From Kiritimatiellia bacterium (GTDB taxonomy: Bacteria; Verrucomicrobiota; Kiritimatiellia; RFP12; UBA1067): a DNA stretch of 15,847 bases. The translations under genes and the position numbers were made by a program. The stretch lies in NCBI GenBank assembly GCA_024405255.1, contig JAKSOY010000093.1, forward strand, positions 1 through 15,847, read 5' to 3'. How positions within the stretch are numbered: the first letter of the stretch is position 1; every line of letters begins with the position of its first letter. The notes beneath the pieces are model-generated. The model was not told where the DNA came from. It ran no database searches and was given only the letters and a program-made list of their open reading frames with translations. Positions 1-15,847 of the stretch are shown one piece after another.

Positions 1-174
1 CTCACGGGCACGCTTGATTTCGGCCCGCGGACGGGACGCTTCTTCTGGTCGCTCAACGGGGCCTGGGGTACGGCGACTGTCTCGTCCGACAAGGTCGTAC
101 TTGAAGTCTGCGAAGGCAAGCTCGACGTCAAACAGGTGACGAAGGGAGGCAAACCCGTGGCGTGGTCCAAGTGA
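1..174 (+). CDS. 3' end of an unrecognised gene (C-terminal 57 residues)
   Basis: Frame 1 is open from the first base of the window to a TGA at 172-174. It encodes 57 residues beginning LTGTLDFGPRTGRFFW and ending GGKPVAWSK. The segment is rich in Gly, Val, Thr and aromatic residues in alternating patterns, compatible with the last strands of a secreted beta-sandwich or beta-helix protein like those downstream. Codon use matches the following genes (GC-rich third positions). I do not recognise a family. It ends 62 bases before the next start on the same strand, so it may be the previous member of the same operon. The 5' end lies outside the window. Confidence 0.7.
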   Translation, partial: LTGTLDFGPRTGRFFWSLNGAWGTATVSSDKVVLEVCEGKLDVKQVTKGGKPVAWSK

Positions 175-236: not shown

Positions 237-3200
237 ATGAGCGCGGGAGCGCTCTTGGGCGCCATGTTCGCGAGTTCTCTCCCTTGGTTTGGAGTTGACT
301 TCTCAGACTATAGGGCAGACGAAGCCTTGTCGGACAAAGGTGCGTACGGCGGGAGTTGGGGAAGTCCGGCAGTCCCGAGTGGGACTGTTGTCACGGCTCG
401 AACGACGGATGCTGGATTCCCGGCGATGGCCCTCCAGGGAGGACTCGATGTTTGGCCGTCCCTTACTTTTGTTCCCGAGACGGTGGCGACGAATGACCTG
501 GTCTCCTTTGACATTCGGTTCAGTCCGGGAGAAGCGATGGATTTTGGCAGTGCCGTCGAGGATTGCAAATTCCTGCTCACCTTCGTTGCCGGCGCTCGGG
601 GCGGCCTGGATGTGGCGGTGGTCGTGGCAGGGCGATGGACGCGCCTTTGCGCGACGGGCCTGACCTTCGAGACCGATGGCTGGTATGACCTACGGGTGAT
701 CCTGAAGGAAATCGGCGGTGAAGCCTATTTGGGCGTGGCGGTGAAGACGGATTCCGGGTATGAACAGCTTGCCGCCGTTTCGGGAGTGAAATGGATTCCC
801 GTCGACCGTGAGGCGATGAAGGCGATTGCGGGTGTGAGCATTGCAGGCGACTGCCAGTTTTCAGGGTTCATGGCGCGTCAGGGAGAATTGCCGGTTGAAT
901 CGGTGGCGAAAGAATGGGTGGGTGGTACGGATGGCGAGTGGAATGCCGCCACCAATTGGTCGGATGGCAGAGTGCCTGCCACTGGCGAACTCGTCCGTCT
1001 CGCAGGACCGGTTGCGCTCGAACGGAACGGCGAAACGGCAACTCTTGCCGAGGCGCTCGTGCGTCCCACGGCCGAGGGTGCGCTCTCGCTTGAAAGTGGC
1101 ACGATTCGCACGGAACTCGAGATGGATTTTTCTCGTCCGCGCGTGGGCGTGCCGCTGGGTATGACGGTGCGGTCGTTTGCCGGCATCACGCCGCCGGTAG
1201 AACTCCGGTGGCTTCGAAGCGAAGGAACGGCCCGTATGAAGTGGGATGTCGTTTCGCTCATGCCAACCTATTCGCCCGCCGTCGCCGACCGTGAGCATTG
1301 GCTCAAGTGCGAGGCAACCGACGCCCTTGGTGTTTGGGCGGAACGCGATTTCTTCTTTTCGCGGCTTCCCGTCGTCTATCTCTCAACAGACGACGGCAAG
1401 GCCCCGATGGTGCCGAGGGAAGAACATGCCGGGCATCTTTATGCGCAGGGAAACGAGGAATGGAAGAGCCCCTACGAGGGAGCGATGACGATCAAGGTGC
1501 GGGGCAATTCCACGGCAGGCTACGCAAAGAAACCGTGGAAGATCAAACTCGACGAGAAGACGAAGATGTTCGGCATCCCGAAGTCGAAACATTGGGTGCT
1601 TCTCGCGAACTATCTCGATCCCACGCAGATGCGCGACAAGCTCGCCTATGACTTCGCCAACGAGATCGGACAGCTCGGGATGAAGTCGACATGGGTCGAG
1701 TGTGTGCTCAACGGCGAATGGCAGGGATGTTATCTTTTCTGCGAACATTTGCGCATTGCCCAAAACCGCGTTGACATCTTCGATTGGGAAGAGGAGGCGG
1801 AGGCACGTGGCATCGAAGGGGGCGACAAGGATTTTTCGTGGGTTGATCCCTCGGTGGACGATCTTTCCGGCGGCTACCTTTTCGAGTTCGACTATCGGGA
1901 CGACGAGCGCTCGAAGTTTACGCTCTCCTCCGGTAACTTGAAAGGACTGCTCACGAAGGTTGTCTCGCCGGAATATCTTTCGTCCAACCCGACAATGATG
2001 ACGTGGTGCCAGGACTATTTGCAGAACTACTTCGATGCCTGCACATCGTTTGACGGAACCGCTGCGGGACGGCATTACTCGGAGTATTGCGACGTCGATT
2101 CGATGGTCAGCTATTTCCTCGTGATGGAAATGTGCGGCAACTGGGATGCGCGCTCGTTGAGCCGATTCGCCTACAAGGATCGTGGCAAGCTCTTGAAGTT
2201 CGGCCCCGTGTGGGACTTCGATTACGATATGGGCAACCCCGAGCGAACGGCCTTCGAGCGCCGTGATCCGGAACGGTGGCTTGTGAATGACGATGTCAAG
2301 AACGCACCCTACTCGTTTTACAAGGAATGGGCGGACGATCCATGGTTTTGCACGCTGTTGTGGACTGCGTATCCGGCGGCGCGGGCAAAGTTCGTGGAGA
2401 TGATTGCGAAGATTGACGAACATGCCGCGTATCTGTCCGAGGCCGGGGAGGCGAATGCACGGAAGTGGCCGCGCGCAACGGGAACGTTCACGAGTAGCAT
2501 TGCGATCTTGAAAGCGTTTCTGACGAAACGTCTCGCCTGGATGGACCGGCAGTTCCGCGATGTGCCCACGCTCATGGCCTCGCTTCGGAAAGTGGCGGAC
2601 GAAGCGGGAACGCCGTCCACCCATCCGTATTCGGCCGATGTCGCGACCCTGCCGCTCGCTTTCGTGAACGCTCCTGCCGGAACGCTGCGGGAAGGACAGT
2701 CGTTGAAACTTGCATTCGCGCTCGGCGATGTGCGCGTGGCGGATGTCGGCTTCTTCATGAACGGTCTCAATGTGGGCACGGCGTCGGTGACGAATGCAAC
2801 TGTGGAAGCGGTCGTGCCGTTTACGGCTTTGACGGCGGCGAAAGGCGATCCGAATTGTCTTTCGCTGATCGCCTATGACGGTGAAGGGGCGCCTCTTGCG
2901 CGCAACTTTGCCCTCGTCACCGTAACGGATTGGGACGAGACGCGCGATGCGACGCCGCCGACCATTGACGGTTCAGGCAATGCGGTACCGTCCGTACCTC
3001 ATCAATGGATTCGCGATGCGGCGGTGGCGGTACGTCCGTCGCTCGCATGGGCCACCGCGGAGGAGTTCGCGCAGGTGATACTCGAAACGCCCTCGCCCTG
3101 GGGCAAGTCCATTCCGCTTTGGCAGGACTACGTGGCGGGGACGATTCCCACCGACCCGAACGACCGTTTCCGCATCACCTCATTCGCGCGCGTCGATGGC

Positions 3201-3338
3201 AAGCCCCGTTTCACCTATTCGCCAGATCTCGGCGAGCGGCGCGTGTACACGGTTGTGCGCGTACCGTCTTCCGCTCCGGCGGAACTTTTCAAGATCAAAG
3301 TGGAATTACCCTTTCAAAACATCAACAAGGAGAAATGA
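237..3338 (+). CDS. secreted multidomain CotH-kinase protein
   Basis: This 1033-residue protein centres on a CotH-type kinase domain, the family named for the Bacillus spore-coat protein kinase CotH. Visible CotH signatures between about residues 377 and 770 are RGNST (422-426), KKPWKIKL just after it, the LLANYLDPTQMRD segment with R466-D467, GGYLFEFD with E550 and D552, and GPVWDFDYDMGN (656-667). The last resembles the metal-binding DxD of the family. Before the kinase come a short hydrophobic N-terminus (1-19), a concanavalin-like beta-sandwich (about 20-220), a short 'GEWNAATNWSDGRVP' module (about 225-275) and an Ig-like domain (about 295-375). After it come another Ig-like domain (about 800-900) and a C-terminal PLWQDYVAGTIPTDPNDRF module that looks calcium-binding. 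ATG 237 is chosen because AAGGA lies at 226-230 and a stop in frame lies at 225-227. The signal sequence lacks a basic n-region, which is odd. Exported location is inferred; the phosphorylation substrate is unknown. Confidence 0.9.
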   Translation: MSAGALLGAMFASSLPWFGVDFSDYRADEALSDKGAYGGSWGSPAVPSGTVVTARTTDAGFPAMALQGGLDVWPSLTFVPETVATNDLVSFDIRFSPGEAMDFGSAVEDCKFLLTFVAGARGGLDVAVVVAGRWTRLCATGLTFETDGWYDLRVILKEIGGEAYLGVAVKTDSGYEQLAAVSGVKWIPVDREAMKAIAGVSIAGDCQFSGFMARQGELPVESVAKEWVGGTDGEWNAATNWSDGRVPATGELVRLAGPVALERNGETATLAEALVRPTAEGALSLESGTIRTELEMDFSRPRVGVPLGMTVRSFAGITPPVELRWLRSEGTARMKWDVVSLMPTYSPAVADREHWLKCEATDALGVWAERDFFFSRLPVVYLSTDDGKAPMVPREEHAGHLYAQGNEEWKSPYEGAMTIKVRGNSTAGYAKKPWKIKLDEKTKMFGIPKSKHWVLLANYLDPTQMRDKLAYDFANEIGQLGMKSTWVECVLNGEWQGCYLFCEHLRIAQNRVDIFDWEEEAEARGIEGGDKDFSWVDPSVDDLSGGYLFEFDYRDDERSKFTLSSGNLKGLLTKVVSPEYLSSNPTMMTWCQDYLQNYFDACTSFDGTAAGRHYSEYCDVDSMVSYFLVMEMCGNWDARSLSRFAYKDRGKLLKFGPVWDFDYDMGNPERTAFERRDPERWLVNDDVKNAPYSFYKEWADDPWFCTLLWTAYPAARAKFVEMIAKIDEHAAYLSEAGEANARKWPRATGTFTSSIAILKAFLTKRLAWMDRQFRDVPTLMASLRKVADEAGTPSTHPYSADVATLPLAFVNAPAGTLREGQSLKLAFALGDVRVADVGFFMNGLNVGTASVTNATVEAVVPFTALTAAKGDPNCLSLIAYDGEGAPLARNFALVTVTDWDETRDATPPTIDGSGNAVPSVPHQWIRDAAVAVRPSLAWATAEEFAQVILETPSPWGKSIPLWQDYVAGTIPTDPNDRFRITSFARVDGKPRFTYSPDLGERRVYTVVRVPSSAPAELFKIKVELPFQNINKEK
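3327..3332 (+). promoter_or_regulatory. Shine-Dalgarno AAGGAG deciding the start of the 3341 gene
   Basis: AAGGAG lies 8 bases before ATG 3341 but only 2 bases before the in-frame ATG 3335, so 3341 is the likelier start. ATG 3335 overlaps the TGA of the preceding gene (ATGA at 3335-3338), an arrangement typical of translational coupling. The frame stays open upstream to about 3005, but that part overlaps the CotH gene and has no signal peptide. Confidence 0.7.
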
Positions 3339-6533: not shown

Positions 6534-7904
6534 ATGAAAAAACAGTGTTTGATTGGTTTGGTAGTGGTCACGGGAGTGACGGCGTTCGCCGAGGTTGCGA
6601 CGACAACGCTGCGGGCGGAATCGTTTGCGGGCAAATCGGCCACTGCGGGCATTCAGCAGGCGATCGACGCGGCGACGGCGAAGGGCGGCGGCACGGTGCG
6701 GCTCGCGCCGGGTGACTACGCCGTGGCGAGCATTTTCCTGAAGGACAACGTGACGCTCCATCTCGAAAAGGGCGCGACGCTCATCGGGTCGACCAACTTT
6801 ACCGACTATGCGCTGTGCCCGAGTTCGGTGAAGGGACTCGACCACGCGATCGTCAATGCCCGCGATGCGCACAACGTGGCGCTCACAGGCGAAGGCGTGG
6901 TGAATGGACGCGGGCGTTTCGCCGTTCATAACAACAACGACAACCGGCGGTGGCTGGACTGTCTGTTCGCGCGTTGCGACGGCGTGAAACTGGAAGGCGT
7001 GACGCTACGCGACCCGTCCTTCTGGACGTGCTACTTCTCGGCCTGCACGAACGTCGTCGCCCGCCGCGTGACCATCAAAAGCCACGCCAACTTCAATGGC
7101 GACGGGATTGACATCGATGCCCAGAACGTGCTTATCGAAGACTGCGTGATCGATGCGGAGGACGATGCGATCTGCCTCAAGAGCGATACGCCCGGCTTCG
7201 TGGTGCGGAACGTCGAAGTGCGGAACTGCACGCTCGCCTCGAACTGCAACTTCATCAAGTTCGGCACGGCGAGTCTCACAGGGTTCGCCGACTGCCGGAT
7301 CCACCATTGCACGCTCGTACGGCCGAGTGCGAAGAGCCACTTCAACTGGCGTCCGTCGATCGTTCCGGGTGTGACGGGACCGCAAACGGGCATCGCAGGC
7401 GTGGCGTTGGAAGTGGTGGACGGCGGATTCATGGAGAACGTCCACGTGCACGACCTCGTGATGAAGGAGGGCGTACAGACGCCGCTCTTCATCCGCTATG
7501 GACGCCGCCGTTCGCCGAAACCGGGCAAGAAGAGCTGCTTGCAGAACATCCTCATCGAGCGCATCCGCGTGGAACAGACGGAATGTTTCATTGCGAGTTC
7601 CATCACCGGCGTGCCGGGCCTGCGGCCGCGCAACATCGTGCTCAGGGATCTCGACTTCACGGTGAGGGGCGGCGGTACGCGTCGGGCTTCGTCGGGACCC
7701 GTCCCCGAACGCGAGAAGAGCTATCCGGAGAACCGGATGTTCGGAACGATGCTGCCGGCTTATGGTTTCTACGTGCGTCATGCGGACGACATCCGCTTCG
7801 AAAACGTGCGCCTTCGTTACACGGGGTCGACGGAAGAGCGTCCGCCGCTCGTGCAGGACGACACTACGGGCGTGGTCGTCGACCGTTGCGATTTTAAGCA
7901 GTAA
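6534..7904 (+). CDS. glycoside hydrolase family 28 (polygalacturonase-like) enzyme
   Basis: 456 residues, the usual length for a bacterial GH28. GH28 enzymes hydrolyse galacturonan and related acidic glycans with a right-handed beta-helix. Residues 1-19 form a Sec signal peptide (MKKQCLIGLVVVTGVTAFA, cleavage before EV), so the enzyme is exported. AGIQQAIDAATAKGGGTV and DNVTLHLEKGATLIGS are the typical first helix turns. Catalytic motifs are N188-G-D190-G-I-D (NTD-like) and E209-D210-D211 (the DD pair). The third motif reads N237-CNFIKFGT instead of the textbook GHG, a variant I associate with exo-acting or non-pectin GH28 relatives. A LFIRYGRRR segment follows near residue 322. AGGTGA at 6521-6526 precedes ATG 6534 by 7 bases. 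It is flanked by secreted binding proteins, consistent with a polysaccharide-degrading locus. The substrate is not certain; a rhamnogalacturonan or mixed uronic-acid glycan is as plausible as homogalacturonan. Confidence 0.92.
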   Translation: MKKQCLIGLVVVTGVTAFAEVATTTLRAESFAGKSATAGIQQAIDAATAKGGGTVRLAPGDYAVASIFLKDNVTLHLEKGATLIGSTNFTDYALCPSSVKGLDHAIVNARDAHNVALTGEGVVNGRGRFAVHNNNDNRRWLDCLFARCDGVKLEGVTLRDPSFWTCYFSACTNVVARRVTIKSHANFNGDGIDIDAQNVLIEDCVIDAEDDAICLKSDTPGFVVRNVEVRNCTLASNCNFIKFGTASLTGFADCRIHHCTLVRPSAKSHFNWRPSIVPGVTGPQTGIAGVALEVVDGGFMENVHVHDLVMKEGVQTPLFIRYGRRRSPKPGKKSCLQNILIERIRVEQTECFIASSITGVPGLRPRNIVLRDLDFTVRGGGTRRASSGPVPEREKSYPENRMFGTMLPAYGFYVRHADDIRFENVRLRYTGSTEERPPLVQDDTTGVVVDRCDFKQ

Positions 7905-7930: not shown

Positions 7931-10900
7931 ATGATGATGTTCCCTCCAGCTGTCGTTTGGACGGCGGCTCTTGCCGTTCTTGCGTTGTCTTTGCCGAGTG
8001 CGGCAGAGACTTCGACGGCTTTGCCGACGGTTGTTGTTCAGGGAACATGGATCGGAACGGCGGGATCGTGGAGCGACAAGGGCGATGTGGGCGCGAAGGC
8101 GTTTGACGGGAATCTTGCGACATACGTTGACGCACCTTCGGGGAGCGGGGCCTGGACGGGACTTGACCTGCGGATGCCGCAGCAGATCGTGGGCCTGCGC
8201 TTCGCGCCTCGTCCCTCCTGGGCGAAGCGCATGGTGGGCGGTGTTTTCGAGGGGGCGAATGCGCGCGACTTTTCGGGCGCGGTGACGCTCCATAAGATCA
8301 CGGTGGAGCCGCCTGAGGGGGTGATGACCGAAGTCTCCCTCGGGGCCTCTGCCGGACTCTATCGCTATGTGCGTTATGTGAGTCCTGCGGACGGCTATTG
8401 CAACGTGAGCGAAATCGCGTTTCTCGTGCCGGACGTCCATCTGGAGGGTCCTGCCGCGCCCACGCTTTCGGTGCCGCCCGGCTTCTCGTCCACGAATGTG
8501 ACGGTGGCGCTTTCCTATCCTGTCGACGGTGCGGAGATCTACTACACGCTCGATGGGTCCATGCCGGTCGCCACGGAAAGCGAGACGTGTTTCCGCTACA
8601 CGGCGCCGCTCGTTTTCGGTGATGTCACGAGCCGTCCGAACCGTCTCGCGCTTTTCCCCACGAATCCCTACGAGTTCTACACGTCCGGCTCCTACAAGGA
8701 CCAATACGGCTGGGCGGCGCCGAAGACGGACCAGCCGAACGTCAACGTACTACGGGCGCGGGCGTTCAAGAACGGCGTGGCGAGCACGAATGATGTCTTC
8801 GGCACGTGGCTCGTGGGGGCGATTCCGAACGCGCATACGTTACGCGTCGTTTCGATTCAAACGGACGAGGCGAATTTCTTTTCGGATGCGACCGGACTCA
8901 TGGTGCCGGGCGATGTCTACAAGTCATACGGGAAAGCTGTGAGCGGGATCGGTCTGCCGTATGCGAACTACTTCCAGCATGGCGACGCCTGGGAGCGGGA
9001 GGTCGCCTTCGAACTCTTCGAGACGAATCGCGCGGAAGTGGTGGCGCAGCATCTCGGCGTTCGCATGCATGGCGGCTATTCGCGTGCCTGTGCCCAGAAG
9101 ACGATGACGTTCTACGCCCGCAAGGAGTACGGCAAGAAGAAGGTGACCTACCCATTGTTCGGTGACGATCCGGAAACGGATTTCAAACGCTTCCTGCTTC
9201 GGAACGGCGGTAACGACTGGTATCAGACCGGCTTCCGCGATGCATTTGGACAATCCCTCTTCCGCGGGTGGGTGGCGTGCGATACGCAGGGCTATGAGCC
9301 GTGCGTCGTCTATTTGAACGGCGAATACTGGGGCATCCAGAATTTTCGGCATCACTACTCCAAGCATTTCTTCGAGACGTGGCATGGCGCCGATCCCGAA
9401 AATCTCGATTTCATCAAGACCGGCCGTTCTGCTGGCGACGACGTGCAGGAAGGGGACGGTGTCGCCTACGCCGAACTGTGTTCTTACCTTAACTCCCACA
9501 ATCTCGCCAGCGATGCGGCGGCATGGGCCTATGTGCAGACGCGCATCGACATCGACAATCTCATCGACTACAACATCCTTCACATCTATCTCGTGAACAC
9601 CGACTGGCCGGACAACAACCAGGGCTTCTGGCGCGAGCGCGTGGACTATTCGTCCACGGCCGCACCGCCCCATGACGGACGCTGGCGTTTCGTTTCCTAC
9701 GATACCGACCATGCGCTTGGACTTTCTGGAAGCGTGACGACGGACATGATCTCATACGCGAAGAAGCACGACTTTTTCAAGGCGCTCAGCGCCAATCCCG
9801 AATTCGTCCGCCGGTTTGCGTCCCGCACGGCCGACCTCCTGAACACCGCGCTCGTGCCCGCGCGCACGACGAACCGGCTCGCCCGCGCGGCGGCGCGTCT
9901 TCGCGGCGAGACGCCGCGCCACATTGCGCGCTGGACGCGTCAGGGTTCGCTTGCGACCTGGGAGAATCACCTCCAGACGGTCAACAATTTTCTCTTGAAC
10001 CGCGAAGCCCAGGTGCGGTCGAATTTGAACTCGTATTTTTCCGTCGGCGAGTCTGTGGCGCTCACGGTCAACACGAACGGTGCGGGCCGCATCCAGTTGA
10101 ACTCGATTTCCTCCGGGTCGGGCGAGACCGAGTTCGCATTGCCGTTTACGGGACGCTACTTCACCAAAGTGCCCGTCACGCTCACGGCAACGCCGGAACC
10201 GGGATGGCGCTTCATCGCGTGGATTGTGAACGAGGAGACGATGCTGGAACCCACGATTTCGCTCACCCTCTCAAAGGCGACATCGGCGCTTGCCTATTTC
10301 GTTCCCGTGCCGCGTCCGCAGATCGTCGTCAACGAAGTGATGGCGAATGCCGATGTGCCGGACTGGTTTGAACTCTTCAATGCGGGGACGGAGGAAGTCG
10401 ATCTCGGCGGGTGCTGGTTGACGGACGACTCCCTCTCGCATCTGACGACGATTCCGATGGGAACGCGTCTCGCGCCGGGCGGGTATTTGCTTGTGCAGGC
10501 GGATGACACGGTGGCCGAAGGACTTGATGCCAACGGCGTCCTCCATGTGCCGTTCGGTCTGGGTAAGAATGGCGACGCGGTGAACCTCTGGAATCCCGCG
10601 CGCACGGACCGGCTCGCGCAGGTCATGTTCGGTGCCCAGACGAAGAACGTGAGCGAAGGCTGCTGGCCGAACGGGACGGCGGACGCGTGGTGTGCGCAAA
10701 GCGTGCCGACCCCGGGGAAGCCGAATCGCTCGCCGGTTGCGACGGGCGGCTGGCTGCCGGATGGCGTGAGCACCAACGTGCTGGCGGGGGAACAAGTCGT
10801 TTTGTCCTGTACCGTTACGAATGCGGCGGCGAGCGGTGTGTATGCGCTCGAGGAGAGTCCGGAACGGGCGGCGGCGATTTCGTCGGCGGGCGTGTTCACA

Positions 10901-11992
10901 TGGCGGGTGCCGGCATCTGCCACGCCGGGGATGCGTGCGTTCCGCGTGAGCTGGTCGATGGCGGGTGAAAAAGTGGATGAAACGACGCTCCTCGTGACGG
11001 TGACGCGTCCTGTCGATTTGGAGGACCTGATTCCGCATGTGCCAACTGTGGCGTGTGCGGGAACGACGCGATCCGGGGCGACGCCGCTGGTCTATTGGAC
11101 GGTATCGCCGCATGCGGAATCCTATACGATCGAGCGTGCCGTGACGCTGTCGGGGGCGTATGCGCCGGTGGGGACCGTCGGAACGGGAACGTCCGTTTTC
11201 CTCGACCGCACGGCGAATGCGACCACCAACTGGTATCGGATCGTGGCGAATGGAAAGGCGGGGATCACGACAACGACGGTGGCCGGACAGGCCTGGGCGA
11301 GCGGATTCCGCCACACGTATTCCGGCGACATTCTCGGCACGCCGGGTTCGTGGAGCGGGAAAGGCGATGTGAAAGAACATCTCTTCGACGGCAACACGTC
11401 GACATACTTCGATGCGCCGGAAGCGAGCGGATGGGGCGGCATCGACGTGGGACGCGTCTGCGTGCGCGCGATCGAGGAAATCCGCTATTGGCCGCGGAAC
11501 GACTGGGCGGCGCGGATGGTCGGCCAGCGCTTTCAGGTGGCGCAGGAGCTGACGGCGGACGGGGACTTCGCGAACCCCACCACGATCTATACGATTCCTT
11601 CCGAGCCCCCGCAGAGAACCTGGACCACGGCGAAGCTCGCGAACACGAATGCGTGGCGGGCCATTCGCTATATCGCCACCAGCGGCAACTGCAATGCGAA
11701 TGAAATCGAGTTCAGAGGGCAGGACGTCGTACCGTCCGTGCCGACGGGATTGCATGTGGAGGCGCGCGACATCGCATCTTCGCAGCTGGCGTGGAACGGC
11801 GTTGCGCCGGCGACGGGCTATCTCGTTTTTACCAACGGTGTTCCATGGGCGTTTACCGCCTCACCCTCGGTTTCTGTTGCGCGTCATAAAACGCGTACGG
11901 CAATCGGTGTCGAGACGGTGAATGGCAATGGCAGGAGCGGGAGGTGCACGATTGAAATTCCTCCGTCGTCGTTCGCGCTCTTCTTCCGATGA
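7931..11992 (+). CDS. large secreted CotH-kinase protein with discoidin-like and lamin-tail domains
   Basis: 1353 residues with a Sec signal peptide (1-25, ending PSAA before ETS). Apparent order: F5/8C (discoidin)-like domain about 34-167; chitobiase-type beta-sandwich about 175-285 (EIYYTLDGSMP); CotH-kinase domain about 295-690; B-repeat-like strands about 700-790 (LTATPEPGWRFIAWI); lamin-tail domain about 795-933 (IVVNEVMANADVPDWFELFN); Ig-like about 935-1035; FN3-like about 1040-1120; second F5/8C-like domain about 1130-1265; FN3-like to the end. CotH landmarks are R378-M-H-G-G-Y-S-R, WGIQNFRHHY and D591-T-D593-H-A-L-G. This CotH is divergent from the one at 237. Three ATGs run at 7931, 7934 and 7937; AAGGG at 7920-7924 fits the first. 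The protein ends SFALFFR, recalling the LFR end of the 3341 product. It probably binds glycans or cell surfaces; kinase activity is family-based inference. Confidence 0.9.
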   Translation: MMMFPPAVVWTAALAVLALSLPSAAETSTALPTVVVQGTWIGTAGSWSDKGDVGAKAFDGNLATYVDAPSGSGAWTGLDLRMPQQIVGLRFAPRPSWAKRMVGGVFEGANARDFSGAVTLHKITVEPPEGVMTEVSLGASAGLYRYVRYVSPADGYCNVSEIAFLVPDVHLEGPAAPTLSVPPGFSSTNVTVALSYPVDGAEIYYTLDGSMPVATESETCFRYTAPLVFGDVTSRPNRLALFPTNPYEFYTSGSYKDQYGWAAPKTDQPNVNVLRARAFKNGVASTNDVFGTWLVGAIPNAHTLRVVSIQTDEANFFSDATGLMVPGDVYKSYGKAVSGIGLPYANYFQHGDAWEREVAFELFETNRAEVVAQHLGVRMHGGYSRACAQKTMTFYARKEYGKKKVTYPLFGDDPETDFKRFLLRNGGNDWYQTGFRDAFGQSLFRGWVACDTQGYEPCVVYLNGEYWGIQNFRHHYSKHFFETWHGADPENLDFIKTGRSAGDDVQEGDGVAYAELCSYLNSHNLASDAAAWAYVQTRIDIDNLIDYNILHIYLVNTDWPDNNQGFWRERVDYSSTAAPPHDGRWRFVSYDTDHALGLSGSVTTDMISYAKKHDFFKALSANPEFVRRFASRTADLLNTALVPARTTNRLARAAARLRGETPRHIARWTRQGSLATWENHLQTVNNFLLNREAQVRSNLNSYFSVGESVALTVNTNGAGRIQLNSISSGSGETEFALPFTGRYFTKVPVTLTATPEPGWRFIAWIVNEETMLEPTISLTLSKATSALAYFVPVPRPQIVVNEVMANADVPDWFELFNAGTEEVDLGGCWLTDDSLSHLTTIPMGTRLAPGGYLLVQADDTVAEGLDANGVLHVPFGLGKNGDAVNLWNPARTDRLAQVMFGAQTKNVSEGCWPNGTADAWCAQSVPTPGKPNRSPVATGGWLPDGVSTNVLAGEQVVLSCTVTNAAASGVYALEESPERAAAISSAGVFTWRVPASATPGMRAFRVSWSMAGEKVDETTLLVTVTRPVDLEDLIPHVPTVACAGTTRSGATPLVYWTVSPHAESYTIERAVTLSGAYAPVGTVGTGTSVFLDRTANATTNWYRIVANGKAGITTTTVAGQAWASGFRHTYSGDILGTPGSWSGKGDVKEHLFDGNTSTYFDAPEASGWGGIDVGRVCVRAIEEIRYWPRNDWAARMVGQRFQVAQELTADGDFANPTTIYTIPSEPPQRTWTTAKLANTNAWRAIRYIATSGNCNANEIEFRGQDVVPSVPTGLHVEARDIASSQLAWNGVAPATGYLVFTNGVPWAFTASPSVSVARHKTRTAIGVETVNGNGRSGRCTIEIPPSSFALFFR
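8030..11724 (+). repeat. N- and C-terminal copies of one discoidin-like module
   Basis: Two copies of the same F5/8C-like module bracket the protein, encoded at about 8030-8430 and 11321-11724. Copy 1 reads GTAGSWSDKGDVGAKAFDGN..TYVDAP and copy 2 GTPGSWSGKGDVKEHLFDGN..TYFDAP. Both continue with a R..WAKRMVG / NDWAARMVG segment and end in a (V)RY(V/I)...GNCN/GYCN..EI.F strand. The span given covers both copies and the unrelated domains between them. Confidence 0.8.
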
Positions 11993-12023: not shown

Positions 12024-13097
12024 ATGATGTCGTTTGTTAAAGTGCCGGAATCGAATTATCGTTTCTTTGTGACGGCGATGCAGAACAAGAAGCCGGAACG
12101 GATGCCGCTTTACGAGCATCACATCGATGCCGGGTTCATTCAGAAGGACATTCACGAGCCGATGGTGGAACTGCTCGATGGTCCGGTGGAGGCGAAGCGG
12201 AAGTTCTTCCGCCTCTACGTCGACTATTGGCAGAACCACGGCTACGACATCGTCACTTTCGAGCGGGGCATTCCGCTGGCCTGTCCGGGGAGCGGTGCGT
12301 TGCGCTTCAACGGCGAGCCCTGCATCAAAACGCCCGAGGATCTCGCCCGCTACCCGTGGGACGAGATTCCCGACCGTTATTTCGCGCAGGAAGCGGAATA
12401 CTTCGAACTGTTTGCGGAGGAGGTCCTGAAGCGCGACAACATCCGCGCTGTTGGCGGACCCGGCTACGGCATCTTCGAGACGGTGCAGGATCTCGTTGGC
12501 TATCAGGAACTCTGCTACCTGATGTACGACGAGCCCGAGATGGTGGAGGAACTTTTCCGCCGCGTGCGCGAATTGTATGTGACCATCTGGACGCGTTTCC
12601 TCAAGGACTATGCCGCGCCGTATTGCGTGTGTCGCATGGGCGACGATCTCGGCTTCAAGGACGAGACGCTTCTGCCGCACGCGTTCATCGTGAAAAACAT
12701 TCTCCCCGGCTACAAGCAGATCGTCGATCTCGTCCATGCGAGCGGCCGTCCGTTCATCCTCCACTGCTGCGGCAAGATTTTCGGCGTGATGGACGAAATC
12801 CTCGCTACGGGCATCGATGCGAAGCACAGCAACGAAGACCAGATCGCGCCGTTCCACCGCTGGGTTGAACTCTACGGCGACCGCATCTGCAATCTGGGCG
12901 GCATCGATATGAACGTCCTCTGCATGGAGAAGCCCGAGACCATTGCGCGCAAGGTGCGCGAGACGATCGAGGAGAACATCGACTTCGGCGGCTTCGCACT
13001 CGGCTGCGGAAATTCCATTCCCGACTATATCCCCGTCGAGGGCTTCCTCGCAATGAACCAGACCGCCAACGAATTCCGTCTGCGGCAACTGCGGTGA
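12024..13097 (+). CDS. URO-D-fold methyltransferase (MtaA/MtbA-like, cytoplasmic)
   Basis: 357 residues with no signal peptide, resembling uroporphyrinogen decarboxylase-family proteins. Many of these are zinc-dependent cobamide methyltransferases rather than true haem enzymes. The zinc-ligand pattern H-x-C...C seen in the MtaA/MtbA group is present as H247-C-C249-G and C328 (FALGCGNSIPDYIP, near the C-terminus). RMGDDLGFKDETLLP and HSNEDQIAPFHRW are typical of this family. The N-terminal arginine residues of true HemE are not evident. GAGGA at 12012-12016 precedes ATG 12024 by 7 bases; a second ATG follows at 12027. It lies 31 bases after the CotH gene, so it is probably co-transcribed. No corrinoid protein or reactivase is in the window, so its methyl donor and acceptor are unknown. 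Confidence is good for the fold, low for the substrate. Confidence 0.85.
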   Translation: MMSFVKVPESNYRFFVTAMQNKKPERMPLYEHHIDAGFIQKDIHEPMVELLDGPVEAKRKFFRLYVDYWQNHGYDIVTFERGIPLACPGSGALRFNGEPCIKTPEDLARYPWDEIPDRYFAQEAEYFELFAEEVLKRDNIRAVGGPGYGIFETVQDLVGYQELCYLMYDEPEMVEELFRRVRELYVTIWTRFLKDYAAPYCVCRMGDDLGFKDETLLPHAFIVKNILPGYKQIVDLVHASGRPFILHCCGKIFGVMDEILATGIDAKHSNEDQIAPFHRWVELYGDRICNLGGIDMNVLCMEKPETIARKVRETIEENIDFGGFALGCGNSIPDYIPVEGFLAMNQTANEFRLRQLR

Positions 13098-13168: not shown

Positions 13169-13232
13169 GACTTAAGTCAATTCGACTATAGTCGAAAGAT
13201 TTCGATTTTTTTTCACTCCGTCGACTATGGTC
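13169..13232. repeat. three copies of a 10-bp GACT..(A/G)GTC dyad before the first ATPase
   Basis: GACTTAAGTC (13169-13178) and GACTATAGTC (13184-13193) are perfect palindromes; GACTATGGTC (13223-13232) has one mismatch. The middle copy extends to a 16-base perfect palindrome, TTCGACTATAGTCGAA, at 13181-13196. The third lies just upstream of the -10 element. Spacing between copy starts is 15 and 39 bases. This looks like an operator array for a dimeric regulator; which protein binds is not known. Confidence 0.65.
13181..13213 (+). terminator. possible weak intrinsic terminator after the secreted-protein operon
   Basis: Two mutually exclusive hairpins can form: TTCGAC(TATA)GTCGAA at 13181-13196, and TCGAA(AGAT)TTCGA at 13192-13205. 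The second is followed directly by eight T residues (13206-13213). Stems are short and AT-rich, and the region overlaps the palindromic operator array, so termination is only one reading. Confidence 0.35.
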
Positions 13233-13234
13233 TA

Positions 13235-13243
13235 TGATATAAT
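13235..13243 (+). promoter_or_regulatory. extended -10 promoter for the first ATPase
   Basis: TGA-TATAAT at 13235-13243 is a perfect -10 with the upstream TG dinucleotide. There is no convincing -35 at 16-18 bases. Transcription would start near 13250, giving a short leader with GAGGAG (13252-13257) 7 bases before the GTG start at 13265. The third GACTATGGTC dyad ends 2 bases before the TG and would occlude polymerase if bound. Confidence 0.6.
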
Positions 13244-13264: not shown

Positions 13265-14479
13265 GTGCTCATACGAAACAGTTATCTTGAGAAGGTTCGC
13301 CCGTTCGTCGGGTTGGACGTCGTGAAGGTTATTACGGGAATGCGCCGCAGCGGGAAGTCCGTTCTGATGGAACAGATCCGCGACGAGATCATTCGAAAGG
13401 ACAATCCACGCACGACGGTGTTCTATTTGAATCTGGAAGAAGAAGAGAATGCCAGGTTCCTGAAGAAAGGCGTGTTGCATGAACATGTCCTCAAAATCAT
13501 TCGTAAGGCCAAGGGGGGACGAGTCGCCGTTTTCCTGGATGAGGTCCATGAGGTGGAGGACTGGGAGATCACGGTCAATTCTCTCCGTGCGAAAAAGAAT
13601 GTGGATGTCTATGTCACAGGATCGAACTCGAAACTCCTGTCGGGAGAACTCGCGACTCACTTGACGGGGAGATACGTTGAAATCAAGGTCAGCCCATATT
13701 CCTTTGCGGAATTTCGCGAGGCGTCGGCGTCGGTTTTCGGTGCGCTTTCGCGTGAGGAGCAGTTCCAACGCTATCTGACGTTCGGGGGACTGCCGTTCCT
13801 CGCCAATCTCGGCTACTGCGGGGAGTGGACGAAGGTCTATCTGGAGGATGTGTTTTCCTCCATCCTTCTCAAGGATGTTGCCCGGCGGGGAAAGATACGC
13901 GACATTGATCTGCTGAACCGTGTCGTACGCTATGTCATGACAGAGGCCGGACATACTTTCTCGGCGGCGTCGATTGTCCGTTATCTCAAAAACGAGGGAC
14001 GCCCTTGTACGGTGGACACGGTTCTTAACTATCTGACACTTTGCGAGGAGGCGTTCCTGTTCATGCGGGTCCCGCGTGAGGACTTGGTCGGGCGAAAGGT
14101 GTTGTCGGTTGATGAGAAGTTCTACGTCACCGATCACGGTATGCGCCGCGCGCTGGTCGGTGGGGCAGTTCGTCAGGACATCGACCAGATGCTGGAGAAC
14201 ATCGTATGTGGGGAGCTTCTCCGTCGGGGATGGCGGGTTACGGTTGGCAGAGTTCGGGCGAAGGAGATCGACTTTGTCGCGGAGAAGGGCGGGGACAAGT
14301 GCTATTACCAGGTCGCCTACTTGATGCCGGACGAAAAGGTCAGGCGACGCGAGTTTGGCGCGTTCGAGGGGTTGAAAGATGGATATCCGCGCATTGTCGT
14401 TTCAATGGATCCCGTTGATATGGGCGGTAACGGCATTCGGCATATGAATGTCTGCGATTTTCTGCTTCAATCGATATGA
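13265..14479 (+). CDS. AAA+ ATPase with C-terminal DUF4143 (first copy)
   Basis: 404 residues from a GTG start; no in-frame start lies upstream before a stop at 13235-13237, and GAGGAG fits. Walker A is G25-MRRSGKS32 and Walker B is VAVFLDE (87-93). VYVTGSNSKLLSGE (about 115-128) is the sensor-like strand. A winged-helix stretch lies around 215-270 (FSAASIVRYLKNEGR). The C-terminal DUF4143 region has K333-E-I-D336-F and ends in Y347-Y-Q-V-A-Y, where nuclease-like relatives have an ExK; the catalytic lysine is therefore absent. This is a known family of stand-alone bacterial and archaeal ATPases, usually present in many paralogous copies, whose cellular role is unsettled. It has its own promoter and palindromes, so it is not part of the upstream operon. 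Nuclease function seems unlikely for this copy; DNA binding through the winged helix is inference. Confidence 0.9.
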   Translation: MLIRNSYLEKVRPFVGLDVVKVITGMRRSGKSVLMEQIRDEIIRKDNPRTTVFYLNLEEEENARFLKKGVLHEHVLKIIRKAKGGRVAVFLDEVHEVEDWEITVNSLRAKKNVDVYVTGSNSKLLSGELATHLTGRYVEIKVSPYSFAEFREASASVFGALSREEQFQRYLTFGGLPFLANLGYCGEWTKVYLEDVFSSILLKDVARRGKIRDIDLLNRVVRYVMTEAGHTFSAASIVRYLKNEGRPCTVDTVLNYLTLCEEAFLFMRVPREDLVGRKVLSVDEKFYVTDHGMRRALVGGAVRQDIDQMLENIVCGELLRRGWRVTVGRVRAKEIDFVAEKGGDKCYYQVAYLMPDEKVRRREFGAFEGLKDGYPRIVVSMDPVDMGGNGIRHMNVCDFLLQSI

Positions 14480-14538
14480 GAGGTAAGGACAGGTCCGACA
14501 AAGCGGGTGGGTATTTCGTTGTATGATGTTTGATCTGT

Positions 14539-14601
14539 GTACCAAAGCGGACAGGTGTCCGTTTTAGTTTGTACCAAAGCGGACACCTGTCCGTTTTGGT
14601 A
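14539..14601. repeat. twin 28-bp palindromes with inverted cores before the second ATPase
   Basis: Copy 1 spans 14541-14568 and copy 2 spans 14573-14600. Both begin GTACCAAAGCGGACA (14539-14553 and 14571-14585, a direct repeat 32 bases apart). In copy 2 the 13-base arms ACCAAAGCGGACA and TGTCCGTTTTGGT pair with one mismatch around a central CC; copy 1 has two mismatches around a central GG. The 12-base cores GGACAGGTGTCC and GGACACCTGTCC are exact reverse complements. A decayed partial copy (GGACAGGTCCG, then ACAAAGCGG) lies at 14487-14506. Copy 2 abuts the -35 element. They could be operator sites; as RNA they could also form hairpins followed by TTTT, acting as a terminator for the first ATPase. 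Confidence 0.8.
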
Positions 14602-14630
14602 TTGATTGTCCAGCCCGTTTATGCTATACT
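14602..14630 (+). promoter_or_regulatory. promoter TTGATT - 17 bp - TGC-TATACT for the second ATPase
   Basis: TTGATT at 14602-14607 and TATACT at 14625-14630 are separated by exactly 17 bases, with an extended -10 TG at 14622-14623. The -35 begins one or two bases after the second palindrome. Predicted transcription start is near 14637, 3 bases before ATG 14640, so the message may be leaderless. Confidence 0.7.
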
Positions 14631-14639
14631 GTCTACGTA

Positions 14640-15847
14640 ATGAAAGCAATGCATTATCCACGTCTCTACGAGACAATTGTTCGGGAACATCTTTCTCGGT
14701 ATCGTCAGATGGTGTTCCTGTCTGGTCCTCGTCAAGTTGGCAAGACGACACTTGGTGAGCAGTTGTCGACGGATTACCTGAGCTGGGACGATTCAGATGT
14801 GCGCCGGGCGATTCAAACAGGACAGCGTGCAGTTGTCGATCAATATGCCTTGGCAGCGGCCACGGAGAGGGAGCGTGTTGTTGTCTTCGACGAAATACAC
14901 AAATATGCGAAATGGAAGTCCTTTCTCAAAGGGTTCTACGACGCCCATGCCAAGAACATGCATCTCATCGCCACCGGGTCCGCCAAGATGGATGTTTACA
15001 AAAAAGGTGGCGATAGTTTGATGGGGCGGTATTTCCCCTACCGTATGCATCCATTTTCCGTCGCGGAATTACTTGATGTTACGATCCCCGATGAGAAACT
15101 CATTCGTCATCCGAAGCAGCTTGTCGATGCGGAGTGGGAGGCTCTCTGGCGGTTCGGTGGATTTCCGGATCCGTTTTGTCGAAGGGACGTCCGCTTTCTG
15201 AATCGTTGGCGCTCGCTTCGGTTCGAGCAGTTGACCCAGGGCGACACACGCGATTTGACCCAAATTGTCGAGTTGGAGCAATTGATCGTTTTGGCGGAAA
15301 TCCTCGCAAATCGTTCGGGCGAGCAGCTCGTCTATAAAAACCTGGCGGTTGAAATCGGCGTGGATGAGAAGACCGTCAAAAAATGGATCAAGACGCTCAA
15401 GTATCTCTACTTTGGATTTGAGGTTCGACCGTGGTTCAAAAATATTGAAAATTCAATCAGGAAAATGCCCAAGTGGTATGTTCGTGACTGGTCGGGTGTC
15501 GAGGACGAAGGGAAACGCGTCGAAACATTGGTCGCCTGCCACATGCTCAAGGCGGTAGAAGGATGGACCGATATGGGCTTTGGATCATTTTCGCTCAATT
15601 ATGTGCGGGACAAGCGGAAGCGGGAGGTTGACTTCTTGGTCGCGAAAGACAACCGTCCATGGTTCTTGGTTGAGGTCAAAATGTCCGATATGCACCTTTC
15701 TGACAATTTGGCCGCTTTTCAGCGTCTCTGCGGGGCCAAGCATGCTTTTCAAGTCGTGTGGGACTGTCCGTATGTCGAGCGCGATTGTTTTGATTATACG
15801 GATCCTGTCGTGGTTCCCGCCCGGACATTCCTCAGTCAACTGCTTTA
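14640..15847 (+). CDS. AAA+ ATPase with C-terminal DUF4143 (second copy; cut at the last codon)
   Basis: The frame is open from ATG 14640 for 402 codons and the window ends on TA, which is probably the start of a TAA or TAG stop, so the protein is almost certainly complete. Walker A is G29-PRQVGKTT37 and Walker B is VVVFDE (80-85). ATGSAKMDV is the sensor-like strand and GRYFPYRMHPFSVAEL follows, as is usual in the family. A winged helix lies around 215-275 (LAVEIGVDEKTVKKWIKTLKYL). The C-terminus keeps the full restriction-endonuclease-like signature: E329-V-D331-F...E345-V-K347. It differs in this from the first ATPase, with which it shares little beyond the fold. No Shine-Dalgarno is visible before 14640 or the alternative ATG 14649. 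The codon mix looks more AT-rich than the secreted-protein operon, which may reflect separate acquisition. Function unsettled. Confidence 0.88.
   Translation, partial: MKAMHYPRLYETIVREHLSRYRQMVFLSGPRQVGKTTLGEQLSTDYLSWDDSDVRRAIQTGQRAVVDQYALAAATERERVVVFDEIHKYAKWKSFLKGFYDAHAKNMHLIATGSAKMDVYKKGGDSLMGRYFPYRMHPFSVAELLDVTIPDEKLIRHPKQLVDAEWEALWRFGGFPDPFCRRDVRFLNRWRSLRFEQLTQGDTRDLTQIVELEQLIVLAEILANRSGEQLVYKNLAVEIGVDEKTVKKWIKTLKYLYFGFEVRPWFKNIENSIRKMPKWYVRDWSGVEDEGKRVETLVACHMLKAVEGWTDMGFGSFSLNYVRDKRKREVDFLVAKDNRPWFLVEVKMSDMHLSDNLAAFQRLCGAKHAFQVVWDCPYVERDCFDYTDPVVVPARTFLSQLL

Follow-up and report, generated by a model that had tools for sequence, protein, structure and literature searches.

The gene of an AAA_14-DUF4143 ATPase that begins at position 14640 of contig JAKSOY010000093.1 (Kiritimatiellia bacterium, assembly GCA_024405255.1) is preceded by two 28-bp palindromes, U1 and U2, placed one behind the other just upstream of a predicted promoter. 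What are these twin units, and which protein reads them? We analyzed the whole 15,847-nt stretch that carries them (the window; Table 1) together with homologous loci from other genomes. Across relatives, the palindromes and the helix-turn-helix of the ATPase change together, which makes it most likely that the ATPase recognizes its own operator and is self-regulating. Based on these sequence comparisons, we consider it highly probable that the units form a private two-site operator, bound by the ATPase itself via the winged helix-turn-helix of DUF4143, with autorepression the most likely effect. A first-pass annotation of the window had proposed a dedicated operator pair; conservation, concerted change of the cores, and protein–DNA co-variation centered on the ATPase's own helix-turn-helix all support that proposal.

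The twin units and their conservation

Both near-perfect palindromes of the first-pass annotation are real (Table 1). They belong to a 31-nt direct repeat whose copies, at 14538–14568 and 14570–14600, are 90% identical and spaced by 32. This spacing had been noted correctly, while the left part common to both copies measures 16 nt (TGTACCAAAGCGGACA) rather than 15. U2 indeed stops at the –35 box, one base before TTGATT. By itself, the promoter match in the window is at chance level (1 found versus 0.6 expected). The first-pass annotation also described the two 12-base cores as exact reverse complements of each other. This is literally correct but incidental, with no signal of its own, because it results from identical palindromic arms that carry GG in one unit and CC in the other at the center. 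The center bases show a correlation of just r 0.07 with the helix-turn-helix, and mirror-image cores were dropped as a special feature.

We gathered homologues of the ATPase from the family (114 genomes), order (161) and class (345) of genome RUG14528. The counted set comprises 72 loci, namely the window and 71 homologues whose proteins are at least 44% identical to that of the window and longer than 340 residues. From the 106 homologue loci (L018–L123) plus the window, 35 were left out; these include distant subfamilies, the truncated L043, L044 and L063, and two loci just below the identity limit, L069 (41.6%), which has the pair, and L103 (43.6%). L058 and L059 entered the core profiles with a single unit each.

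Most upstream regions contain two 28-bp units of the form ACCA-WW, a six-base core, four center bases, the inverted core, and WW-TGGT. The outer frame, ACCA...TGGT, is nearly constant. A second unit (at least 14/28 identity) is present in 67 of the 72 loci, at an offset of –32 (36 loci), +32 (23), –31 (6) or –33 (2). Scores combining frame and palindrome reached 16 or more in 53/72 loci and in none of 1,440 dinucleotide shuffles; the frame term of this score was learned from the same loci. The identity between copies, which is independent of that learning, was at least 18/28 in 56/72 loci versus 0/1,440 shuffles, and at least 14/28 in 66/72 versus 59/1,440.

The units also hold a register with the promoter. 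TTG lies 0–2 bases past a unit in 67/72 loci, in 48 of those as TTGAC, and the unit picked at each locus ends 35–41 bp upstream of the ATG in 53/72. In the window, the ATG follows the predicted –10 box at a distance of nine bases (14631–14640). Together, the short gap and the position of the picked unit suggest leaderless or very short-leader mRNAs, and the ATPase mRNA of the window is probably leaderless or nearly so, judging from the gap.

Could the units act instead as RNA, as paired hairpins or as a terminator of the preceding gene? In the window they lie about 60–120 bp past the stop codon of another ATPase gene, and both can fold, with non-pairing, when G-U is allowed, only at position 14 in U2 and at positions 3 and 14 in U1. 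Across loci, however, stem positions 5–12 of the picked unit include one or more that do not pair in 60/72 cases. In 15 loci the half-sites start with AA versus TT, which breaks the stem and leaves the DNA half-site intact. The TTG register, too, speaks for DNA, as does the last unit, which ends <15 nt before the ATG or overruns it in 19 of 67 loci. No terminator-like site and no Rfam family was found, and the symmetric core tracks a helix-turn-helix, as described below. We regard an RNA-level element as very improbable.

Core diversity and the helix-turn-helix of the ATPase

Within the nearly constant frame, the inner core varies, both among orthologues and among paralogues of one genome. The window has CGGACA; elsewhere we found CGGATA, TGGACA, CTAAAC, CTAGCG, CTGACC, CCGCAG, CCAAAT, ATCGAG and others. 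The two copies of a locus nevertheless agree: U1/U2 core similarity is 0.89 within loci versus 0.52 between loci, and none of 2,000 shuffles reached the within-locus value. Paralogues, by contrast, have unlike U2 cores in each of 10 genomes compared (similarity 0.12–0.84). That paralogue cores differ while the copies of a locus agree speaks strongly against one shared regulator, and a single global regulator was rejected on these grounds. Two genomes carry tandem ATPase genes (L096/L097 in G528 and L091/L092 in G091), each gene with its own, different operator.

We then compared the divergence of each 11-residue window of the ATPase with core divergence between loci, after removing the divergence of the remaining protein. 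A single outstanding peak appeared at residues ∼231–251 (r 0.40, 72 loci), with 238–248 as the best window. With sequences ≥90% identical dropped (61 of 72 left), the peak was 0.42, and the best value outside residues 220–262 was 0.22. None of 500 label permutations, which do not keep phylogeny, came up to the real data: in the version of the scan used for this test, the observed maximum was 0.38 and the largest permuted value 0.21. U1 alone and U2 alone gave the same peak window, and control DNA (the 30 nt before the ATG, and –170 to –131) gave no peak at the helix-turn-helix. An AlphaFold (AF2) model of the ATPase, built on a 112-sequence alignment with a predicted local distance difference test (pLDDT) score of 92.3, has helices at 232–239 and 243–255 followed by a strand at 259–264. 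The scan peak coincides with these elements and thus corresponds to the winged helix-turn-helix.

Other comparisons point to the same region. Of 5,628 residue–base pairs ranked by mutual information, the first is K244, at the start of the second helix, with half-site position 10; E243 with position 8 ranks 13th, and residues 228–254 hold 8 of the top 25 pairs versus 1.7 expected. Loci with similar cores are picked better by 13 helix-turn-helix residues than by the rest of the protein when relatives above an identity limit are excluded (0.666 versus 0.572 at 60%, 0.732 versus 0.681 at 65%, 0.741 versus 0.696 at 70%). At a 90% limit, the two are nearly equal (0.866 versus 0.860). The same 13 residues outdo each of 26 other 13-residue windows. 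Among 35 non-overlapping nearest pairs of loci, the best window is 240–250 (r 0.58).

Residues 243–244 can be read against half-site positions 8–11, in tallies whose entries are non-independent events. EK goes with CGGA in 10/14 loci (CGGC in 1), EN with CGCA in 8/9, PK with TGGA in 5/6, EP with TAAA in 5/6, PH with TGCA in 4/4, ET with TAGC or TAGT in 5/5, and PD with TCGA in 4/6; EV goes mostly with CA-A (9/10). The clearest exception is AEKT, whose three loci, counted among the 14 with EK, have TGAC. This correspondence is likely a first recognition code.

An alternative is that a separate regulator, with its gene at another place, uses the units as its operator. Dedicated transcription factors commonly have palindromic sites in front of –35 boxes, and our case for the ATPase as the binding protein is drawn from sequence. 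Yet the differing paralogue cores would require several such regulators, and it is the ATPase's own helix-turn-helix that best tracks core change. Nor does mere linkage fit well: the windows encoded nearest the operator, at the gene's 5′ end (sampled starts, residues 1–37), give r ≤0.14. These data make a separate regulator distinctly unlikely.

Random scatter of core matches over the genome had been named as an outcome that would speak against an operator. The motif as written is rare. A search of the species-genome collection with its strict form gave one exact match, at locus L012 (RUG14528). There, a unit stands directly before TTGACA, and ∼25 bp on begins a stretch coding for the C-terminal 31 residues of a DUF4143 ATPase (65% identity, E 1e-8), so that the site marks a deleted ATPase gene. 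In a scan of the phylum at up to three mismatches, 5 of 387 genomes had a match; only genome G001, which has one such site, matched without mismatch, and the other four, each with three, we take for chance, genomic context aside. The core CGGACA, suggested earlier as a probe for other DUF4143 genes, is one core among many and misses their operators. A core-free frame pattern (ACCAWW-N16-WWTGGT-N1-2-TTGAC) gave 17 matches in 16 of 155 genomes, compared to 1 for the reversed control. Thirteen stand before intact ATPases and 2 before relics of an ATPase 3′ end, hence 15/17 at an ATPase or relic. One more is an orphan pair, and the last (L157) is non-palindromic and lies before a gene read from its translation as mraZ-like.

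One of the two relic matches, L165, is the L012 site itself. At the other, L166, a 50-residue alignment extends backward as far as the operator sequence, and by eye about 36 codons from the end of the gene are left. In both genomes (L012, minus strand, about 3692–3545; L166), operator and –35 box adjoin the last 30-odd ATPase codons, with most of the gene gone. The orphan, L162 (G254:C68:413), is a twin operator of the TCGA type, in whose surroundings none of the 72 ATPase proteins matched. Beyond cellular genomes, a shorter core pattern occurs in 11 stretches of viral contigs, in none of them with ACC ahead of it and GGT behind it, and plasmids gave no match. Two Aeromonas phage records, OR359403.1 and OQ628262.1, show weak likeness to the operator region at 6 and 4 places (E 0.03–0.09).

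These searches bear on whether the units could be a dispersed repeat or the termini of a mobile element. The ATPase genes occur in multiple copies (25 DUF4143 matches in G001), the two relics keep the operator and the 3′ end of the gene, and L058, with a single upstream unit, has an identical unit 18 nt past the stop codon. L058 is, however, the sole such case: a downstream copy (≤8/28 mismatches, up to 400 nt) was found in 1 of 70 loci. No common 3′ flank was seen by eye in the 60 loci viewed, G001 holds its one strict-motif site rather than many, and the units hold promoter register and follow helix-turn-helix type. Transposon termini or a dispersed repeat therefore seem hardly credible.

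How the ATPase may control its own gene

In the reading we favor, self-regulation by the ATPase, the winged helix-turn-helix of the DUF4143 part would read the inner core (CGGACA in the window), and the nearly constant outer ACCA/TGGT would supply a family-wide frame. Two dimers, separated by about three helical turns, would occupy one face of the DNA next to or over the promoter, and the ATP state may switch their binding. Bound ATPase would most likely repress its own gene; we infer repression rather than activation because the units cover or touch the promoter, and where the last unit lies near or over the ATG (19/67 loci) it covers the promoter, as we read the sequences. With palindromes at its own promoter that co-vary with its own recognition helix, the ATPase would work like an autoregulatory helix-turn-helix protein.

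Several observations weigh against this reading, in addition to the phylogeny ignored by the permutations and the non-independence of the tallies. In the ranking by mutual information, 17 of the top 25 pairs lie outside residues 228–254, including Y6, M312 and T199. In the nearest-pair test, window 48–58 is close behind the best, at 0.53. Core positions 10–12 alone peak at residues 219–229 (helix-turn-helix, 0.22), and frame positions track residues 325–335 (0.35) rather than the helix-turn-helix. Five of the 72 loci have no good second unit, and some paralogue cores are close (L058/L066, 0.84). In 48/67 loci, including the window, both units end at least 25 nt before the ATG, and an activator could also sit there, upstream of or at the –35 box. 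Finally, for the subfamily to which the window's first ATPase belongs (n = 19), the scan favors no part of the protein clearly: 299–309 (0.44) and 219–229 (0.39) rank ahead of the helix-turn-helix window 246–256 (0.38).

The nuclease part of the protein might instead use the units chiefly as its substrate or anchor, for instance as a self-mark or parking site, with regulation secondary. The same protein has an intact PD-(D/E)XK-type motif, G001 has its single strict-motif site, and the orphan pair at L162 comes without a recognisable gene. The strict promoter register points, however, to transcriptional control, and we hold this alternative to be unlikely. A more speculative extension of self-regulation, and a doubtful one, is that each ATPase of the PDC-S01 type (see below) acts as a sentinel anchored on DNA: at its private operator it would be off both as a STAND-like nuclease and as a gene, until an infection freed it by damaging host DNA, changing ATP or displacing it, with immediate derepression. 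If so, the operator would be sensor, brake and self-mark at once, and dozens of copies with differing cores could each act independently.

The genes of the window, other subfamilies and known systems

Coordinates are collected in Table 1. The ATPase behind the twin units has both domains in order and above the curated Pfam cut-offs: AAA_14 at 7.3e-27 (94.4 bits, cut-off 27) and DUF4143 at 1.5e-24 (87 bits, cut-off 28.1). It also matches the PADLOC PDC-S01 models (3.5e-53 over residues 3–364). It matches no NCBIfam family, has one weak PHROG match, and matches no solved structure by sequence better than E 0.21. Near its C-terminus, E329, D331 and E345 are invariant and K347 is at least 90% conserved; in the model, they fall on adjacent strands (329–336 and 339–347), acidic residues plus E-x-K, as in a predicted nuclease-type PD-(D/E)XK motif. 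The few close relatives of the protein that carry a taxon name are Kiritimatiellae or Kiritimatiellia. Upstream of both ATPase genes lie two large CotH-domain proteins, a GH28 protein and a URO-D-domain protein (237–3338, 6534–7904, 7931–11992, 12024–13097).

Table 1. Positions of the features discussed, numbered from the first base of the window
Feature	Position	Strand	Description
Site pair before first ATPase	13181..13232	+	TTCGACTATAGTCGAA (13181–13196) and CGACTATGGTC (13222–13232), about 39 bp apart, by eye
First ATPase, AAA_14-DUF4143, another subfamily	13265..14479	+	GTG start; PADLOC PDC-S01 2.7e-139
Operator unit U1 (putative)	14541..14568	+	28 bp, ACCAAAGCGGACA-GG-TGTCCGTTTTAGT; palindrome with 11/14 pairs
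Operator unit U2 (putative)	14573..14600	+	28 bp, ACCAAAGCGGACA-CC-TGTCCGTTTTGGT; palindrome with 12/14 pairs; –35 box one base on
Predicted promoter	14602..14630	+	TTGATT-17-TATACT, extended TG; –35 at 14602–14607, –10 at 14625–14630
AAA_14-DUF4143 ATPase behind the twin units	14640..15847	+	402 codons; stop codon cut off by window end
Walker A	14724..14747	+	GPRQVGKT, residues 29–36; G29, P30, R31, Q32, G34 and K35 invariant (alignment of 112)
Helix-turn-helix	15333..15404	+	Helix 232–239, recognition helix 243–255 beginning with E243, K244 (AlphaFold model)
PD-(D/E)XK-type motif	15624..15680	+	E329-V-D331 ... E345-V-K347 (alignment of 112)

The first ATPase of the window, of another subfamily, has a site pair of its own, followed by a –10 TATAAT at 13238–13243. 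In its homologues, site pairs were seen by eye at a spacing of about 40 bp, with differing cores and with the second site placed between –35 and –10. We also examined the 25 DUF4143 matches of G001. Fourteen of these genes could be analyzed (the other 11 were dropped because the start was not found or too little upstream DNA was available), one of which (L183) is the gene of L040 and thus already among the 72 loci; 80 of 90 control genes were used. Significant upstream direct or palindromic repeats were present in 11/14 DUF4143 genes, compared to 8/80 other genes, and of the 7 DUF4143 genes with direct repeats, 6 have a spacing of 32–34 bp. Judging from one genome and visual reading, the DUF4143 family as a whole, rather than one gene, may as a rule have private operators. 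In distant DUF4143 subfamilies (L045–L047, L074–L076, L123), non-palindromic direct repeats of ∼20–24 nt were seen by eye, several running into a TTGAC –35 box.

Both ATPases of the window resemble PDC-S01, a PADLOC defence candidate, in that they match its models. PDC-S01 is described as an ATPase fused to PD-(D/E)-X-K, with 29,494 counts in Bacteria and 9,986 in Archaea (PMC12988326), and as the most frequent individual locus in a rumen data set (PMC13356809); the passages on it in these two papers name no operator or self-regulation. Its anti-phage activity is a prediction. The ATPases SSO1545 and PABY2304 (PDB 2fna, 2qen) differ in that they do not cover the C-terminal nuclease-like part of the window ATPase, and our searches brought up no DNA site for them. 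In Thermus thermophilus, expression of the DUF4143 gene TT_P0211 was raised 6.6-fold in the Argonaute wild type carrying plasmid (PMC4406477); in the relevant passage, the authors find no clear connection among the genes in question, and we treat TT_P0211 as a lead only. Our searches of the open literature on DUF4143, PDC-S01 and PF13173/PF13635 found no description of such an operator or of self-regulation.

AAA_14-DUF4143 genes are very numerous, yet the open literature searched says little on them. Our analysis gives these ATPases a likely DNA target, a likely mode of control and what is likely a first recognition code. Because the promoter is a ready-made reporter, what they sense becomes directly testable.

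Toxin–antitoxin repressors, the C proteins of restriction–modification systems and LacI-family paralogues are autoregulators with co-evolving operators. The window ATPase would share with them a helix-turn-helix product acting on palindromic sites at its own promoter, with specificity diverging between paralogues. It differs from them as a single-gene, multi-domain AAA ATPase with a nuclease-type domain, whose putative operator combines a nearly constant frame with a variable core in a pair spaced by 31–33 bp.
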